From contig JAFWVY010000032.1 in assembly GCA_017523725.1 (NCBI GenBank), positions 1 to 64,000 on the forward strand: a stretch of DNA of 64,000 bases, given 5' to 3'. Origin of the DNA: Bacteroidales bacterium. Lineage in GTDB: Bacteria; Bacteroidota; Bacteroidia; Bacteroidales; UBA4181. The notes below the pieces were generated by a model, which saw only the letters and a list, made by a program, of their open reading frames with translations, made no database searches and was not told the DNA's origin. Position numbers and translations under genes: made by a program. Positions 4,751-43,272 of this stretch are shown one piece after another. Within the stretch, counting starts at the first letter, position 1, and each line of letters begins with the position of its first letter.

Positions 4751-5494
4751 TTAGCAGGTCATGCCGCCGCAGACATGCAGTACCTGGCCGGAGATGTAGG
4801 CCGACAGGTCGGAGGCGAGGAACAAGGCAGCCTTGGCTACGTCTTCGGGTGTGCCGCCACGCCGCAGCGGGATCTGGTCGGTCCACTGTTTGAGTTTCTC
4901 TTCGGGCAGGGATGCGGTCATTCCGGTCAGGATAAATCCGGGTGCGATGGCGTTGCAGCGGATGTTGCGCGAACCGATTTCCTTGGCCACCGATTTGGTG
5001 AAACCGATGATACCGGCCTTGGAAGCTGCATAGTTGGCCTGACCCGCGTTGCCGGAGACACCGACCACCGAACTGATGTTGATGATGCTCCCGCCGCGCT
5101 GGCGCAGCATGAGTGGCTGTACGGCCTTGGTCATGCAGAACACGGACTTCAGATTGACATTGATGACCATGTCCCATTGCGCCTCGGTCATGCGCATCAA
5201 CAGACCGTCGCGTGTGATGCCGGCGTTGTTGACCAGAATGTCAATATGGCCGAAGTCTTCCGCCACTTGCTGTACAATGGCCTGTGCATTCTCGAAATCC
5301 GCCGCATTGGAAGCATAAGCCTTGGCTTTGATGCCGGTTGCCAGCAGTTCTTTTTCAGTTTCCTGCGCTACTTCGTCGTACGCAAGATCGGTTATGGCGA
5401 TGTCTGCGCCTTCTGCCGCAAAGCATTGGGCGATGGCTTTGCCGATTCCTCTGGCCGCTCCGGTGATGAGGGCCGTTTTTCCTGATAATAACAT
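4751..5494 (-). CDS. fabG: 3-oxoacyl-[acyl-carrier-protein] reductase FabG
   Basis: A 247-residue short-chain dehydrogenase/reductase. It carries the NADP-binding TGAARGIG motif at the N-terminus, the structural NNAG motif, and the catalytic Ser-Tyr-Lys set (ISSVVG and YAASK). Length and motifs match FabG, which reduces 3-oxoacyl-ACP in the fatty-acid elongation cycle in the cytoplasm. No other fab gene is nearby; it heads a two-gene unit with the downstream M48 protease. The family contains many look-alike reductases, so the substrate assignment rests on overall similarity. Confidence 0.88.
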   Translation of the reverse strand: MLLSGKTALITGAARGIGKAIAQCFAAEGADIAITDLAYDEVAQETEKELLATGIKAKAYASNAADFENAQAIVQQVAEDFGHIDILVNNAGITRDGLLMRMTEAQWDMVINVNLKSVFCMTKAVQPLMLRQRGGSIINISSVVGVSGNAGQANYAASKAGIIGFTKSVAKEIGSRNIRCNAIAPGFILTGMTASLPEEKLKQWTDQIPLRRGGTPEDVAKAALFLASDLSAYISGQVLHVCGGMTC

Positions 5495-36240: not shown

Positions 36241-37287
36241 TTATTTCTGCGCTTCGGGACGCAGCTGGCGCACAACTGCGCCGGCGCGCCACATCTCGCT
36301 GTCGCGCATTTCCTTCAACTCCGCTTCCAGTTTTGCACGGTAGTCCGGCTTGCTGTTCGAATCGATGGAGATCTGCGCTTCATTGCCCTTGGCAACTTCG
36401 TCATAGAGTTTCTCGAACACCGGCTTGGTGGCGTCGCGGAATCTCTTCCACCAGTCCAGCGCACCGCGCTGGGCGGTCGTGGAGCAGTTGGCGTACATCC
36501 AGTCCATGCCGTTCTCGGCCACCAGCGGCATCAGCGACTGCGTCAGTTCCTCGATGGTTTCGTTGAAGGCTTCAGACGGCGTGTGGCCGTGTTCGCGCAA
36601 CGTGTCGTACTGAGCGGCGAAAATGCCCTGGATGGCTCCCATCAGCGTACCGCGTTCACCCGTCAGGTCGGAATAGACCTCACGCTTGAAATCGGTCTGG
36701 AACAGATAACCGGAGCCGACGCCGATACCGAGGGCGATGACGCGGTCCATGGCCCGTCCGGTCGCATCCTGGAAAACAGCATAGCTGGAGTTCAGGCCGC
36801 GGCCCTGCAGGAACATTCTGCGCAGGGAGGTACCCGAACCCTTGGGGGCGATCATGATGACATCCACATCGGCCGGCGGGATGATGCCGGTCCGCTCCTT
36901 GTAGGTGATGCCGAAACCATGGGAGAAATACAATGCCTTGCCGGGCGTGAGGTGTTTCTTGATGGTCGGCCACACCGCAATCTGGCCCGCATCGGACAGC
37001 AGATACTGGATGATGGTGCCTTTCTCTGCGGCTTCTTCAATCTCGAACAGATCTTTGCCGGGAATCCAGCCGTCAGCGACTGCCTTGTCCCAAGTCTTGC
37101 CTTTGCGCTGACCTACAATCACATTGAAGCCATTGTCTCTCAGATTGAGGGACTGTCCGGGGCCTTGTACGCCGTATCCGATGATGGCGATGGTCTCGTC
37201 TTTCAATACTTCACGGGCTTTGCTGAGCGGAAATTCCTCGCGGGTAACCACGTCTTCGACAACTCCGCCAAAATTGATCTTTGCCAT
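36241..37287 (-). CDS. ilvC: ketol-acid reductoisomerase
   Basis: A 348-residue enzyme with a Rossmann domain (IAIIGYGVQGPGQSLNLRDNG), the family segment YFSHGFGITY and a knotted C-terminal domain carrying metal-binding acidic residues (DLTGERGTLMGAIQGIF and ETIEELTQ). It catalyses the isomerisation and NADPH reduction of acetolactate or acetohydroxybutyrate in valine, isoleucine and leucine synthesis. It lies 119 bases downstream of ilvN and has its own possible -7 box, so it can be transcribed separately from ilvDBN, and it ends at a strong terminator. Confidence 0.94.
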   Translation of the reverse strand: MAKINFGGVVEDVVTREEFPLSKAREVLKDETIAIIGYGVQGPGQSLNLRDNGFNVIVGQRKGKTWDKAVADGWIPGKDLFEIEEAAEKGTIIQYLLSDAGQIAVWPTIKKHLTPGKALYFSHGFGITYKERTGIIPPADVDVIMIAPKGSGTSLRRMFLQGRGLNSSYAVFQDATGRAMDRVIALGIGVGSGYLFQTDFKREVYSDLTGERGTLMGAIQGIFAAQYDTLREHGHTPSEAFNETIEELTQSLMPLVAENGMDWMYANCSTTAQRGALDWWKRFRDATKPVFEKLYDEVAKGNEAQISIDSNSKPDYRAKLEAELKEMRDSEMWRAGAVVRQLRPEAQK

Positions 37288-37406: not shown

Positions 37407-37955
37407 TTATGTCAGATGGCGCCGGCGGCTGATTCTGTCCACGTGCGACAGATGTTCCTGCAGCGCTTCCGTCTTTTCGCGGTGAATCGAGATGCGCCCA
37501 GACCTGGTGAATTGAATGACGCCGAATGCGTCCAGTGCCTTGAACAGTTCGGCCGTTTCGTCCTGGTGTCCCGTCTTCTCGATGACAGCGAAGTCATGGG
37601 TCACTTCGAGGATACGTGCACCGAAACGCCGGATGATATGTTCCACCTCCGAGCTGTCGAGCAGCGCCTGGGTCGGTACTTTGTACAATGCGATTTCTTG
37701 ATAGACAAGTTCTTCGTTTACATGATAGTATGCCTTCAGGACCTCAACCAGTTTTTCAATCTGCAACGTCACTTTTTCGATCTGTTCGCGCGTGGTGTTG
37801 ACCACGATGGTGAACTTGTGGATGCCGCGGATGGCGGAGGCCGAAACCGTCAGGCTCTCGATGTTGAGCCGACGCCGCGTGAAGATGATGGTGATGCGGT
37901 TGAGCAGTCCGATGCTGTTTTCGGAAAAGGCCGTAATCGTAAATTCTTGATTCAT
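37407..37955 (-). CDS. ilvN: acetolactate synthase regulatory (small) subunit
   Basis: A 182-residue protein with an N-terminal ACT domain (EFTITAFSENSIGLLNRITIIF) and a second ACT-like C-terminal half. The regulatory subunit binds valine and confers feedback inhibition on the catalytic subunit. The NSIGLLNRI type of opening is the Bacteroidota version. It starts 12 bases after ilvB on the same strand, which supports the pairing. Confidence 0.92.
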   Translation of the reverse strand: MNQEFTITAFSENSIGLLNRITIIFTRRRLNIESLTVSASAIRGIHKFTIVVNTTREQIEKVTLQIEKLVEVLKAYYHVNEELVYQEIALYKVPTQALLDSSEVEHIIRRFGARILEVTHDFAVIEKTGHQDETAELFKALDAFGVIQFTRSGRISIHREKTEALQEHLSHVDRISRRRHLT

Positions 37956-37967
37956 GGCTGATACGGT

Positions 37968-39692
37968 TTATTCGTAAAGAATCTGGTCGATGGATGCGCC
38001 GGCCGGGATCATGGGGAAGACCATGCCTTCTTTCTCCACGTCCACTTCCAGGAAAAAAGCTTCTTGGCTGTTGCACAGCTCCTGCATGGCTCCGGGCAGG
38101 TCTTCCCTTTCCGTCACGCGCCGGCATGCGATGCCGTAGGCCTGCGCAATCCGGATGAAATCCGGGTTTTCGAGTTCGGTGCAGGAATAGCGCTTGCCGT
38201 AGAACAGCTCCTGCCACTGGCGCACCATGCCAAGAAACGAGTTGTTGAGCAGGATGATCTTGACCGGGATGCGGTTCTGGAGAATGGTGCCGAACTCCTG
38301 GATGGTCATCTGGATGCCGCCGTCCCCCACGAACAGCACGACTTCACGGTCGGGGCATCCGACTTTCGCACCGATGGCCGCCGGCAGCCCGAATCCCATC
38401 GTGCCCAGGCCACCCGACGTGATGAACGACCGCGGATGGTTCATCCGGGCGTAGCGTGCCGCTATCATCTGATGCTGTCCGACATCGGTCACCACGATGG
38501 CCTCGCCGCGATCGACGTCGCCGAAGGCTTTCACCACCTCACCCATGGTGATGCGGGAACCCGCCTCAGGCTGCATTTGTTTCCGGACCACTTTGTCGTA
38601 TTCGAAATCCTGCCATGTCTTGAAACTTTCAATCCATTCCCGATGACTGCGTGCTTCCAGTTTCTCCGTCAGCATGGGCAGTGTGCGTTTCATGTTGCCG
38701 AGCACGGGGATGTCGGCCGCAATGCTGCGGTTGATTTCCGATGGGTCCACCTCGAGGTGGATGACTTTCGCCTGGGGGGCGTAGGCCGCCGCCGCGCCGA
38801 TGATGCGCGAGGAGAAACGCATACCGACGGCGATGAGCACATCACATTCGTTGGTTTTCTTGTTGAGTGCCATCTGCCCGTGCATGCCGAGCATGCCCAT
38901 GTACAGCGGATGTCCGGTCGGCAGGGACGACAGACCCATCAGCGTGCATCCGGCCGGCAGGTTGCCTTTCTCGATGAATTCCCGGAGTTCCGGTTCCGCA
39001 TGGGAAAGCTGGACACCCTGGCCGACCAGGACCAGGGGTTTTTCCGCATGGTTGATCAGGTCGGCTGCCTCCGCGATGCTGGCCTTGCTGATATGCGGCG
39101 TCGGGATGTAGCTGCGGATGAAATTGCATTTTTTGTACAGGTAGCTGCACATCTCCTTCTGGGCGTTTGCGGTAAAGTCGATGAGCACGGGACCCGGCCG
39201 GCCGGTATGGGCGATATACAGGGCCTTGGAAATGGCTGGTGCGATATCTTTAGCTTTGGTCACCTGGAAGTTCCATTTGGTAACCGGCATGGAAATACCG
39301 ATGATGTCCGTTTCCTGGAAACCATCCGATCCCAGCACCTGTTCGGCCACCTGTCCGGTGATGCAGACGATGGGCGTGGAATCCAGCAGGGCATCGGCCA
39401 GTCCGGTTACCAGGTTGGTGGCGCCGGGGCCGGATGTAGCCAGGACGATGCCGGTTTTTCCGGTTGCCCGCGCATAACCCTGTGCTGCGTGGACGGCGCC
39501 CTGCTCGTGCCGGGTCAGGATGTGGTGCAGCCTGTCGGTGTAATGGTAAAGGGCGTCGTATATGGAAATGACGTTGCCGCCGGGATAACCGAATATGGTG
39601 TCGATGCCTTCGTCCAGCAGCACTCTGATGAACGCTTCGGCGCCGGAGATGGTTTCCGGGGCCGGTATGGACGGTTCTGTGGTGTGTGTCAT
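37968..39692 (-). CDS. ilvB: acetolactate synthase catalytic (large) subunit
   Basis: A 574-residue thiamine-diphosphate enzyme. It has the N-terminal catalytic Glu region (RHEQGAVHAAQGYAR), the central FAD/Rossmann-like domain, and the C-terminal TPP-binding motif beginning VGDGGIQMT and ending near IILLNN. It condenses two pyruvates to acetolactate, or pyruvate with 2-ketobutyrate. It sits between ilvD (13 bases upstream) and ilvN in the attenuator-controlled operon. Confidence 0.94.
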   Translation of the reverse strand: MTHTTEPSIPAPETISGAEAFIRVLLDEGIDTIFGYPGGNVISIYDALYHYTDRLHHILTRHEQGAVHAAQGYARATGKTGIVLATSGPGATNLVTGLADALLDSTPIVCITGQVAEQVLGSDGFQETDIIGISMPVTKWNFQVTKAKDIAPAISKALYIAHTGRPGPVLIDFTANAQKEMCSYLYKKCNFIRSYIPTPHISKASIAEAADLINHAEKPLVLVGQGVQLSHAEPELREFIEKGNLPAGCTLMGLSSLPTGHPLYMGMLGMHGQMALNKKTNECDVLIAVGMRFSSRIIGAAAAYAPQAKVIHLEVDPSEINRSIAADIPVLGNMKRTLPMLTEKLEARSHREWIESFKTWQDFEYDKVVRKQMQPEAGSRITMGEVVKAFGDVDRGEAIVVTDVGQHQMIAARYARMNHPRSFITSGGLGTMGFGLPAAIGAKVGCPDREVVLFVGDGGIQMTIQEFGTILQNRIPVKIILLNNSFLGMVRQWQELFYGKRYSCTELENPDFIRIAQAYGIACRRVTEREDLPGAMQELCNSQEAFFLEVDVEKEGMVFPMIPAGASIDQILYE

Positions 39693-39705: not shown

Positions 39706-41532
39706 TTAAATAAGGCGGATGCCGCCTTTGTCGGCGGATGCCACCATGGATGCGTATGCCCGGAGCGATTTCGGCACGTAGCGGTTCCGGTTCCGGGGTG
39801 TATAGGCTGCTTGGCCGCGTGCCTCTTCTTCCGCGCGTCTTGCCTTCAGTTCTTCATCGCTGATGCAGAGTCGGATACTGCGGTTGGGGATGTCGATCTC
39901 TATGCGGTCGCCGTCGCGGACCAGGGCGATGGCTCCGCCGGATGCCGCCTCGGGTGAAACGTGGCCGATGGACAGTCCGGAGGTGCCGCCGGAGAACCGC
40001 CCGTCGGTGACCAGTGCGCAGACTTTACCGAGATGACGGGATTTGATGTATGATGTCGGATACAGCATTTCCTGCATGCCGGGGCCGCCCTTGGGACCTT
40101 CGTAATTGATGAAGACGACGTCACCGGCTTTGACCTTGCCGTTCAGAATGCCTTCACAGGCTTCGTCCTGCGATTCGAACACGCAGGCCGGGCCGCTGAA
40201 TCTGAAGATGCTTTCGTCCACGCCGGCCGTCTTGACAATGCAGCCATCCTCGGCGATGTTGCCGAAGAGCACGGCCAGACCGCCTTCGGTCGTATAGGCA
40301 TGCTGCAGATCCCGGATGCATCCGGCCGTCCGGTCGGTGTCCAGCGTGTCATAGCGGGCGTCCTGGTCGCCCAGCCGGACCGTCCGACGGCCGCCGGGGG
40401 CGCAACGGGCGTGCGCAAAGGCGTCTTCGACCGCAGAGGGACGCGTGATGTCGTACCGGTCGATGGCTTCCTGCAGGGTCAGGCCGTCCACCCGCCGCAC
40501 GGAGGTGTCGAGCAGGCCGCCTTTTTCCAGTTCGCCCAGAATGGACATGATGCCGCCGGCGCGACAGACGTCCTCGACATGGTAGGCCGAGGAGGGCGCT
40601 ACTTTGCAGAGCACCGGGATGCGGCGCGACAGCCGGTCGATGTCCTGCATGGTAAAGTCCACGCCGGCTTCCTGGGCGACGGCCAGCAGGTGCAGTACCG
40701 TGTTGGTGCTGCCGCCCATGGCGATGTCGAGGGTCATGGCATTCATGAAAGCCGCCTTCGATGCAATGGACCGCGGCAGTACGCTTTCGTCCCCACGGTC
40801 GTAATAGGCGTAGGCCATTTCGACAATCCGGCGGGCGGCCTGCTTGAACAGGTCGCGCCGCATGGCGTGGGTGGCGAGGATTGTGCCGTTGCCCACCAGG
40901 GCCATGCCGATGGCTTCGGTCAGACAGTTCATGGAGTTCGCTGTGAACATGCCGGAACAGCATCCGCAGGTGGGACAGGCTTTCTGTTCCACTTCTTCCA
41001 GCAGGGAATCCGGGACGGTCTGGTCGGCCCCCATCACCATGACATCGATCAGGTCGTATTTTTTCCGGTCGATGACGCCGGCTTCCATCGGACCGCCCGA
41101 TACGAAAATGGCGGGGATGTTCAGCCGCATGGCTGCCATCAGCATGCCGGGCGTGATTTTGTCGCAGTTGCTGATGCAGACGATGGCGTCCACGGTGTGT
41201 GCGTTGCACATGTATTCCACACTGTCGGCGATGATGTCACGCGACGGCAGTGAATACAGCATGCCGTCGTGTCCCATTGCGATACCGTCGTCAATGGCGA
41301 TGGTGTCGAATTCGGCGGCAAAGCAGCCCTGCGCGGCGATTTCCTCCTTGAGAAGCCGACCGGCCTCTGCCAGATGGACGTGTCCCGGTACGAACTCGGT
41401 GAATGAATTGACAATGCCGATAATCGGCTTGCCAAACTGGTTTTCCTGCATGCCGTTGGCTCTCCAGAGCGCGCGTGCGCCGGCCATCCGGCGTCCCTGT
41501 GTACTGATGGTACTGCGAAACTGATGTTGCAT
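39706..41532 (-). CDS. ilvD: dihydroxy-acid dehydratase
   Basis: A 608-residue iron-sulfur dehydratase. Cluster ligands are visible in [10 protein letters not shown] and [19 protein letters not shown], and the C-terminus has the conserved [21 protein letters not shown] segment. It makes the 2-keto acids of valine and isoleucine from the dihydroxy acids. It is the first structural gene of the ilvDBN operon and is preceded by a valine-codon leader peptide and an attenuator hairpin that ends 22 bases before its start. Confidence 0.95.
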
Positions 41533-41553: not shown

Positions 41554-41589
41554 AAAAAAAGCCTTTCTCCCCCGGAGCAAGGCTTTTTT
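41554..41589 (-). terminator. attenuator terminator upstream of ilvD
   Basis: On the minus strand GCCTT-G-CTCC, loop GGG, GGAG-A-AAGGC forms a long hairpin flanked by A-rich sequence and followed by seven T. Its left arm (CTCCGG, plus-strand 41572-41577) is also complementary to CCGGAG just upstream (41605-41610), giving an alternative, mutually exclusive pairing typical of attenuators. Confidence 0.88.
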
Positions 41590-41616
41590 ATAGCTACATA
41601 CTTTCTCCGGCCGGCA

Positions 41617-41670
41617 TCAGCTGTTGACGACAGAGACGACTACGACGACGTTGAGCGTATGATAATTCAT
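41617..41670 (-). CDS. ilv leader peptide (valine-rich, 17 residues)
   Basis: A short frame on the minus strand encoding MNYHTLNVVVVVSVVNS and then TGA. Seven of the 17 codons are Val and one is Leu. It starts about 14 bases downstream of the predicted transcription start and ends 28 bases before the attenuator hairpin. The arrangement is that of the leader peptides of enteric ilv operons: a ribosome stalled on valine codons would alter the downstream RNA folding. The peptide itself is expected to have no other function. Confidence 0.82.
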   Translation of the reverse strand: MNYHTLNVVVVVSVVNS

Positions 41671-41689
41671 TCTTTTCGGAATTTGCGCG

Positions 41690-41721
41690 CAAAGATACAC
41701 AGAGTTTTCTGTCTTTGCAAA
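41690..41721 (-). promoter_or_regulatory. promoter of the ilvDBN operon
   Basis: On the minus strand a perfect match to the Bacteroidota consensus: TTTG (41718-41721), 20-base spacer, TATCTTTG (41690-41697). The spacer contains the inverted repeat ACAGA-AAAC-TCTGT, which could be an operator. It sits only a few bases after the end of araA. Confidence 0.8.
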
Positions 41722-41733
41722 TGTTTTTCAGGT

Positions 41734-43272
41734 CTATTGCAGCGCCTTGTTCAACATATAGTACACTTCGTTCATGCGCAGTTCCTTCTTGAACCCGCTG
41801 AGGGTGGTGTCCTTGTTGATGTGCAGGAATTCGATGCCGGCAATCTCGGCATAGTCCTCCCAGTACTCGGCCGTCAGGTCGTACGAGAAGCACGAGTGGT
41901 GCGTTCCGCCCGCCATGATCCATGCGCCCGCTCCGGTTTCGAAGTCCGGCATCGGAATCCAGAGCGCCGAAGCCACATGCAGTTTCGGCAGCGGTTTGCT
42001 TTCGATGCATTCCACATCGTTGGCGATGAGACGGAAGCGGTTGCCAAGGTCGATGATGGTGGCGGTGCAGCCCGGCCCCTTCTTCGAGGTGAAGACGAGA
42101 CGTGCGGTGTCGCTCTTGCGGATGCCGATGCCCAGGAAGTTGATCTCCAGTTTCGGCTTGGCGTCGGCGATGAGCGGACAGATTTCCAGCATGTGGGCCT
42201 GCAGGATGGCGCTTCTCTTACCGTCGAAATTCAGCGTATAGTCTTCCAGGAACGAGCATCCGCCGTTCATGCCTTTATTCATCACCCACACGGTGCGGAA
42301 CAGGGCGGCCGATTTCCAGTCTCCTTCTGCACCGAAACCGTATCCTTCCTGCATGAGCCGTTGCGAAGCCAGGCCCGGGATTTGGTCGAAACCGCGGCCG
42401 GTCTGCTCCACGTTGACGTCGCCCAAGTCGTCGAAATTCGTTGTGAAACCCTTGGCTCCTTTGGCTTTGAGAACGGCGCGGAGGGTGAGTTCCGCCTTGG
42501 CGCTGTTCCATATTTTCCGGTAGCCGGATGTGCTGCGGTCTTCCAGCGCCGCATCATGGTCATAGAGACGGAAATATTCCGCGACCAGCGCATCCACGTC
42601 CTTGTCTGCCACGGCGTCGAAGTAAGGCATGACATCGCTGAACGGCATGTAGTCCACATGGTAGCCCAGCCGTTGCTCAGCCTCGACCTTGTCTCCGTCG
42701 GTGACGGCCACGTTGTTCATCTGGTCGCCGAAACGCAGAATCAGCATGTCCTGCGCATCGGCCCAGGCCACGCAGACCCGCATCCAGACGGCGATTTTGT
42801 CCTGGGTGGCGGGATCCTGCCAGTACCCGACCACGACTTTGCGGCGGACGCGCATCCGGGCACAGATGTGGCCGAACTCACGGTCGCCGTGCGCGCTCTG
42901 GTTCAGGTTCATGAAGTCCATGTCCATCGTATCCCACGGAATTTCCCGGTTGAACTGGGTGTGGAGGTGCAGCAGTGGTTTCTGGAAATCTTTCAGTCCG
43001 TGAATCCACATCTTGGCGGGAGAGAACGTGTGCATCCACGTGATGACGCCCACGCACTTCGGATCGGCATTCGCTTTGCGGAATGCGTCCGACACTTCGG
43101 CGGCCGAGTTGACGGTGCCTTTATACACCACTTTGACCGGCAGACGGCCGGATTCGTTCAGGCCTTGCACCATCTTGTTGGAATGGCCGTCCACGGCCAC
43201 CACGGCATCCCCGCCGTACAGCAGTTGGGCTCCTGTCAGGAACCATACTTCGAAGTCGTTGTAATCTATCAT
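41734..43272 (-). CDS. araA: L-arabinose isomerase
   Basis: A 512-residue protein that starts FEVWFLTGAQLLYGGDAV and contains the sugar-isomerase segments WMHTFSPAKMWIHGL, PLLHLHTQFNREIPW and GGTHHSCFSYDL, which carry the manganese-binding His and Glu residues. It converts L-arabinose to L-ribulose, the first step of the isomerase route. No ribulokinase, epimerase, transporter or regulator gene is next to it, so the rest of the pathway must be elsewhere. It has its own TATCTTTG box and no obvious terminator before the ilv promoter. Confidence 0.95.
   Translation of the reverse strand: MIDYNDFEVWFLTGAQLLYGGDAVVAVDGHSNKMVQGLNESGRLPVKVVYKGTVNSAAEVSDAFRKANADPKCVGVITWMHTFSPAKMWIHGLKDFQKPLLHLHTQFNREIPWDTMDMDFMNLNQSAHGDREFGHICARMRVRRKVVVGYWQDPATQDKIAVWMRVCVAWADAQDMLILRFGDQMNNVAVTDGDKVEAEQRLGYHVDYMPFSDVMPYFDAVADKDVDALVAEYFRLYDHDAALEDRSTSGYRKIWNSAKAELTLRAVLKAKGAKGFTTNFDDLGDVNVEQTGRGFDQIPGLASQRLMQEGYGFGAEGDWKSAALFRTVWVMNKGMNGGCSFLEDYTLNFDGKRSAILQAHMLEICPLIADAKPKLEINFLGIGIRKSDTARLVFTSKKGPGCTATIIDLGNRFRLIANDVECIESKPLPKLHVASALWIPMPDFETGAGAWIMAGGTHHSCFSYDLTAEYWEDYAEIAGIEFLHINKDTTLSGFKKELRMNEVYYMLNKALQ

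Follow-up and report, generated by a model that had tools for sequence, protein, structure and literature searches.

The minus-strand interval between araA and ilvD in the window (the whole 64 kb stretch of DNA that was analyzed) very probably encodes a classical ribosome-mediated transcription attenuator of the ilvD-ilvB-ilvN operon, a reading drawn from sequence and strongly supported by the comparison with relatives. The entire feature is carried on the minus strand, with araA ending at position 41734 and ilvD starting at 41532. It consists of a predicted promoter, a short valine-rich leader frame, and two alternative RNA helices, one of which belongs to an intrinsic terminator. All of these parts are present in the window, and relatives retain the leader as well as the two helices. 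Both helices covary, and the leader codons match the pathway encoded downstream.

Functional assignments for the operon were made using curated family models. The upstream gene was identified as araA, which lies on the same strand as ilvD (ATG at 41532). It is followed in order by ilvD, the presumed controlled gene encoding dihydroxy-acid dehydratase (39706..41532; TIGR00110 and NF009103), ilvB, encoding the acetolactate synthase large subunit (37968..39692; TIGR00118), ilvN, encoding the acetolactate synthase small subunit (37407..37955; TIGR00119), and ilvC, encoding ketol-acid reductoisomerase (36241..37287; TIGR00465). All four are located on the minus strand and score above the cut-offs of the respective models.

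Anatomy of the ilvD leader region

The predicted promoter is of the Bacteroidota type (41690..41721, minus strand) and was assigned by motif match: TTTG at 41721-41718 is separated by a 20-bp spacer from TATCTTTG at 41697-41690, exactly where the first-pass annotation had placed it. The pattern TTTG-N19..21-TAnnTTTG has this single match in the 64 kb window, vs 0.12 expected. RNA polymerase would start a few bases past the -7 box, near 41684. Downstream, the leader peptide frame MNYHTLNVVVVVSVVNS (41617..41670, minus strand) runs from an ATG at 41670 to a TGA at 41619-41617 and has Val/Ile/Leu-rich counterparts in relatives. Its 17 sense codons include seven Val, five of them consecutive, one Leu, and no Ile, in full agreement with the earlier description of the frame. 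The window holds 878 frames of 9-40 codons that start with ATG; of these, the leader alone contains at least six Val per 10 codons, and it is again the only frame with at least eight Val, Ile, or Leu per 10 codons.

The terminator hairpin (41561..41583, minus strand), identified by folding and covariation, is formed by GCCTTGCTCC (41583-41574), a GGG loop, and GGAGAAAGGC (41570-41561), the last of these representing segment 4. It contains one internal G.A mismatch and appears in folds of the full leader, as well as of the leader up to the T-run. The adjoining T7 (41554..41560) constitutes the U-tract of the intrinsic terminator, and the hairpin together with T7 (41583-41554) ends 21 bases upstream of ilvD, so that the terminator reported in front of this gene is indeed present. 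A simple terminator scan of the window did not return this hairpin among its results, presumably because of the internal mismatch.

Segment 3 (CTTGCTCCGG, 41572..41581, minus strand), delineated by pairing and folding, is common to the terminator and the antiterminator. Its alternative partner, segment 2 (CCGGAGAAAG, 41601..41610, minus strand), forms the 5′ arm of the antiterminator, begins 6 nt past the leader stop codon in the window, and has a GAGAAAGG core that is conserved and covarying in relatives. The 2:3 pairing involves 9 of 10 positions (41610-41601 with 41581-41572; −13.6 kcal/mol); the alternative pairing previously noted over six bases, 41605-41610 with 41572-41577, is thus real and longer than had been claimed. 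For the window's GC-rich leader taken by itself, the 2:3 pairing falls within the range of dinucleotide shuffles (p 0.12); support for it comes from relatives. A candidate segment 1, CATAC, located at approximately 41659..41663 on the minus strand, may form a protector helix (1:2), of the kind that would cause termination when the leader is not translated, with GTATG, which adjoins the antiterminator core on its 3′ side. This helix is seen in the minimum-energy fold of the window's full leader and reaches p≤0.05 in just 32 of 109 relatives.

Taken as an attenuator, these parts suggest the following mechanism. A ribosome would translate the 17-codon leader behind the polymerase and, with ample charged Val-tRNA, would arrive at the stop codon and cover segment 2, allowing the 3:4 terminator to form and transcription to stop before ilvD. 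If Val-tRNA is short, the ribosome would stall within the Val run, leaving segment 2 free to capture segment 3 before segment 4 has been made, with read-through into ilvD-ilvB-ilvN and possibly ilvC. This scheme was modeled by folding the transcript to the end of segment 3 with an assumed ribosome footprint masked. Before segment 4 exists, the 2:3 helix forms with a modeled probability of 0.98-1.00 when the ribosome occupies any one of codons 1-17, and of 0.01 when its assumed footprint lies on the leader stop codon. In the complete leader at equilibrium, the terminator wins at every ribosome position (p34 1.00); therefore, switching must be co-transcriptional. Such co-transcriptional trapping is an assumption of the model, though one that is usual for devices of this kind; how large and how specific the response would be is likewise presumed.

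Regarding specificity, the first-pass annotation had proposed a single-amino-acid sensor based on the Val bias of the peptide. Near-exclusive sensing of valine is plausible for the window leader, since it is the most Val-biased of 107 ilvD leaders and one of two without Ile. However, this is not the norm for ilvD leaders, which as a group mix Val, Ile, and Leu.

It had also been suggested that ilvC, which has a promoter box of its own, seems to escape this control. A -7-like box (TACCTTTG) is indeed located upstream of ilvC at 37370-37363, and boxes of this type number 27 in the window. However, TTTG is absent at the -33 distance from this box, and a search for a terminator between ilvN and ilvC found none; thus, the escape of ilvC from attenuation is unproven.

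Conservation and covariation among relatives

Upstream regions of ilvD were compared across loci from the same family, the same order, and a set of named genomes, yielding 187 nonredundant regions. In this comparison, which the first-pass annotation had proposed, the short frame, the terminator, and the alternative pairing all proved to be conserved across Bacteroidales, and covariation was evident. A short frame with at least seven Val, Ile, or Leu codons per 10 is present in 125 of the 187 regions, vs about 15 expected from dinucleotide shuffles, and one with at least eight is present in 101 of the 187, vs 2.6 expected by shuffling. Six other residue groups analyzed in the same 187 regions gave just 0 to 3 regions each. 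Named carriers include Bacteroides, Phocaeicola, Tannerella, Dysgonomonadaceae, Prolixibacteraceae, Alistipes, and Marinifilum; for instance, NLAVLHIIRVVVV is a leader of the same type in front of ilvD in a Bacteroides. About a third of the sampled ilvD genes lack such a leader, including several from same-family genomes as well as Prevotella and non-Bacteroidota loci, in which the leader is mostly absent. In 91 of 107 ilvD leaders, a TAnnTTTG box precedes the ATG by no more than 70 nt. No other ilvD locus in the L002-L120 set contains araA, so the element goes with ilvD rather than with araA.

Of the 109 loci that have both a leader and a terminator, 86 show an antiterminator pairing that outperforms shuffles at p≤0.05. 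In relatives, segment 2 mostly starts 0-11 nt before the end of the leader stop codon, typically overlapping the stop. Covariation was assessed in an alignment of 62 leaders by counting the cells changed on both sides of a pair and comparing these counts with shuffles. In the 2:3 helix, 90.2% of cells are paired and 25 cells are changed on both sides, vs 8.2 in shuffles; in the 3:4 helix, the corresponding values are 95.9% and 55, vs 13.5. When the partner is shifted by 1-3 columns, both the paired percentage and the covariation score drop for both helices. At one column triple, A-U-A is replaced by U-A-U in 8 species, such that both helices are still possible. A codon-position test found that third positions differ most (151 vs 104 and 72), suggesting that the leader is translated; as only 33 pairs were available, this support is mild.

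Leader codons at other sites and alternative explanations

A covariance model of the element was built and run on 60 relatives, where it also identified the element before leuA, one ilvA, gltB, and, in a same-family genome, ilvB. Here and below, leuA, ilvA, gltB, and aminotransferase genes were named by eye from sequence, without family models. The leuA leaders are rich in Leu and Ile and mostly free of Val, with a Val share of Val+Ile+Leu of 0.08, vs 0.40 in ilvD leaders (Mann-Whitney p 1.8e-14). Loci with Leu/Ile leaders before leuA include L240, L241, L242, L244, L247, L249, L250, L258, and others. Ile is nearly as frequent as Leu in these leaders, and the leu operon might also serve isoleucine synthesis. 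The Ile-rich ilvA leader, MSIQIYITISIISLITS, was the one convincing case for this gene, indicating that ilvA is not commonly attenuated. At L257, from a genome of the same family (G001), ilvD has no leader, and an attenuator with the V-rich leader MFHALSLAVGLLVVVNVGKN precedes ilvB instead. The element at L243 and L256 lies before gltB-like glutamate synthase genes, where the leaders MKSHSNTVNRHMTIGIIWSG and MRLMSYIIKELTGLTEYLDKEYQIC show no obvious control codon. Outside the order, the model identified V/I-rich leaders before a distant ilvD subfamily. V/I-rich leaders with terminators were also observed outside the order at L342 and L343, before branched-chain-aminotransferase-like genes. Four further matches in relatives, L248, L251, L253, and L254 (E around 1e-3), were rejected, as they look like ordinary terminators after genes.

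In the genome from which the window derives (G000), model matches besides the ilvD leader and its opposite strand have E values of 0.37 or worse. A histidine counterpart was identified in the same genome before hisG, with a leader, an antiterminator, and a terminator. The hisG leader MRQFNAYLHSCLHHHHMM is located on the plus strand of contig C11 at 4860-4916 (about 1208-1264 of locus L349); its antiterminator pairs GGTATGCAAAT with TTTGCATATC over 11 pairs, and its 12-pair terminator (−15.8 kcal/mol) is followed by a U-tract. Attenuators were also looked for before the genome's own leuA, as well as trpB/trpE, thrA, and pheA, and none was seen. On contig C36 (L354), the trp genes occur in an unusual order, a TrpA-like gene followed by TrpB and TrpE (assigned by eye except for TrpE), and no Trp leader was seen before them. 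In sum, leader codons match the downstream pathway, with Val/Ile/Leu before ilvD, Leu/Ile before leuA, Ile before one ilvA, and His before hisG.

Several other mechanisms could account for parts of these observations. One possibility is that the hairpin is a plain intrinsic terminator of araA, which lies on the same strand with its end at 41734, next to a chance Val-rich frame and with no regulation of ilvD; the araA-ilvD interval yielded no second terminator. This reading is highly improbable, given that loci lacking araA (L002-L120) retain the leader and the two helices with covariation, that a predicted promoter is located between araA and the hairpin, and that leader codons track the downstream pathway. 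The same leader-plus-terminator anatomy would also be expected of a nascent arrest peptide similar to TnaC, which would respond, in the exit tunnel, to a free amino acid or other small molecule rather than to tRNA charging. However, the peptide sequence is not conserved beyond its V/I/L richness, positions differ, and the choice of residue follows the pathway, from Val at ilvD to Leu/Ile at leuA, Ile at one ilvA, and His at hisG. A varying peptide with pathway-switched residues fits codon-by-codon tRNA sensing, and an arrest peptide is thus considered very unlikely.

A different role for short upstream frames is that of a translation-reinitiation "antenna" that boosts translation of the following gene (Korolev et al. 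2016, PMC4833913), here ilvD. According to that study, frames of this kind are over-represented in Bacteroidetes, lying 11-14 bp from the gene (PMC4833913). In the window, 84 bases and the terminator separate the leader stop codon from the start of ilvD, a distance that fits the attenuator minimum of about 40 bp given in the same study, and there is accordingly very little to recommend an antenna function. A riboswitch or T-box, in which a ligand or tRNA would bind the RNA directly, would likewise be a cis-regulatory RNA located before biosynthetic genes. Searches of the window and 20 related loci against Rfam, at gathering and permissive thresholds, identified no family at gathering score; the best score was 20.5 bits for Thr_leader (RF00506), vs a gathering score of 55, and Bacteroid-trp (RF01692) was likewise unmatched. 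Moreover, the conserved core comprises the terminator/antiterminator pair only, which makes direct ligand or tRNA binding exceedingly improbable.

Significance and relation to known systems

With ribosome-mediated attenuation as the preferred reading, the ilvD leader represents a type of device that restricts extra synthesis of an amino acid to times when the cell is short of it. Based on the covariation and the pathway-matched codons, leader-peptide attenuation is a likely mode of control of valine and leucine synthesis, and here also histidine synthesis, across much of the Bacteroidota, a dominant gut phylum. A broader interpretation, which we consider evenly balanced, is that branched-chain operons, together with some others of nitrogen metabolism, are controlled in Bacteroidota at large by one ancestral and uncatalogued RNA module (GTGAGAAAGGTATGTA ... 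CCTTTCTCAC ... GTGAGAAAGG-U-tract). This module would have been retargeted by leader-codon swaps (Val/Ile/Leu before ilvD or ilvB, Leu/Ile before leuA, and Ile before ilvA, with the meaning of the gltB leaders unassigned) and narrowed to a nearly pure valine sensor in the window genome. The alignable model of the element can be added to RNA-family catalogues, and the element itself allows a direct test of how transcription and translation are coupled in bacteria that are not known to rely on Shine-Dalgarno signals.

Among characterized systems, the ilvGMEDA, ilvBN, and leu operons of the enteric bacteria Escherichia coli and Salmonella are controlled by leader-peptide attenuators. The window element resembles these in having a short leader with control codons that stops close to the antiterminator, terminator and antiterminator helices that exclude each other, and target genes of the same pathway. 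In contrast to the enteric attenuators, it has a Bacteroidota promoter, the gene order ilvD-B-N, an almost Val-only leader, and segments 2 and 4 that are near copies of each other (GAGAAAGG); the likeness is one of mechanism rather than of evident sequence relation. The nearest published precedent found in the phylum is the Bacteroid-trp RNA motif, which we take to be an attenuator; it concerns another operon, and its RF01692 model has no match at the ilvD leader. In the main text of the original report, this motif is a table entry, named for trp genes, among candidate cis-regulatory RNAs in Bacteroidetes (RF01692, PMC2864571).

Attenuation has already been proposed in Bacteroidota, while no Rfam family was found for the ilv/leu element itself. 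A transcriptome study of Flavobacterium psychrophilum, also from Bacteroidota, presented strong hints that leader-peptide attenuation operates upstream of amino-acid operons (PMC9723704), with no ilv gene named in its main text and no comparative model, and short frames "reminiscent of leader peptides" were described in B. thetaiotaomicron (PMC7366714). A 2010 survey of premature terminators extended leader-peptide systems to Firmicutes; by its account, Proteobacteria and Actinobacteria had been the only known sources until then (PMC2965389). No family or paper covering the ilv/leu element was found in Rfam and the open literature; another 2010 survey, which compared attenuation across genomes (Lopatovskaya et al., cited in PMC4833913), may already include Bacteroidetes cases. 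A search of open papers for experimental tests of such attenuation in Bacteroidota likewise found none.

Outside the phylum, the ilvBNC attenuator of Corynebacterium glutamicum was tested by mutation (PMC11857589, PMC10272879). It shares with the window element an ilv operon, a short leader frame, and alternative hairpins, but it belongs to another phylum and controls another operon, a likeness of layout rather than of evident homology. In Staphylococcus aureus, a leucine-rich attenuator peptide precedes ilvD (PMC5794164). This case, too, places an attenuator peptide ahead of an ilvD-led operon; unlike the Val-biased leader of the window, however, the S. aureus peptide is Leu-rich, is combined with CodY, and occurs in a different phylum.
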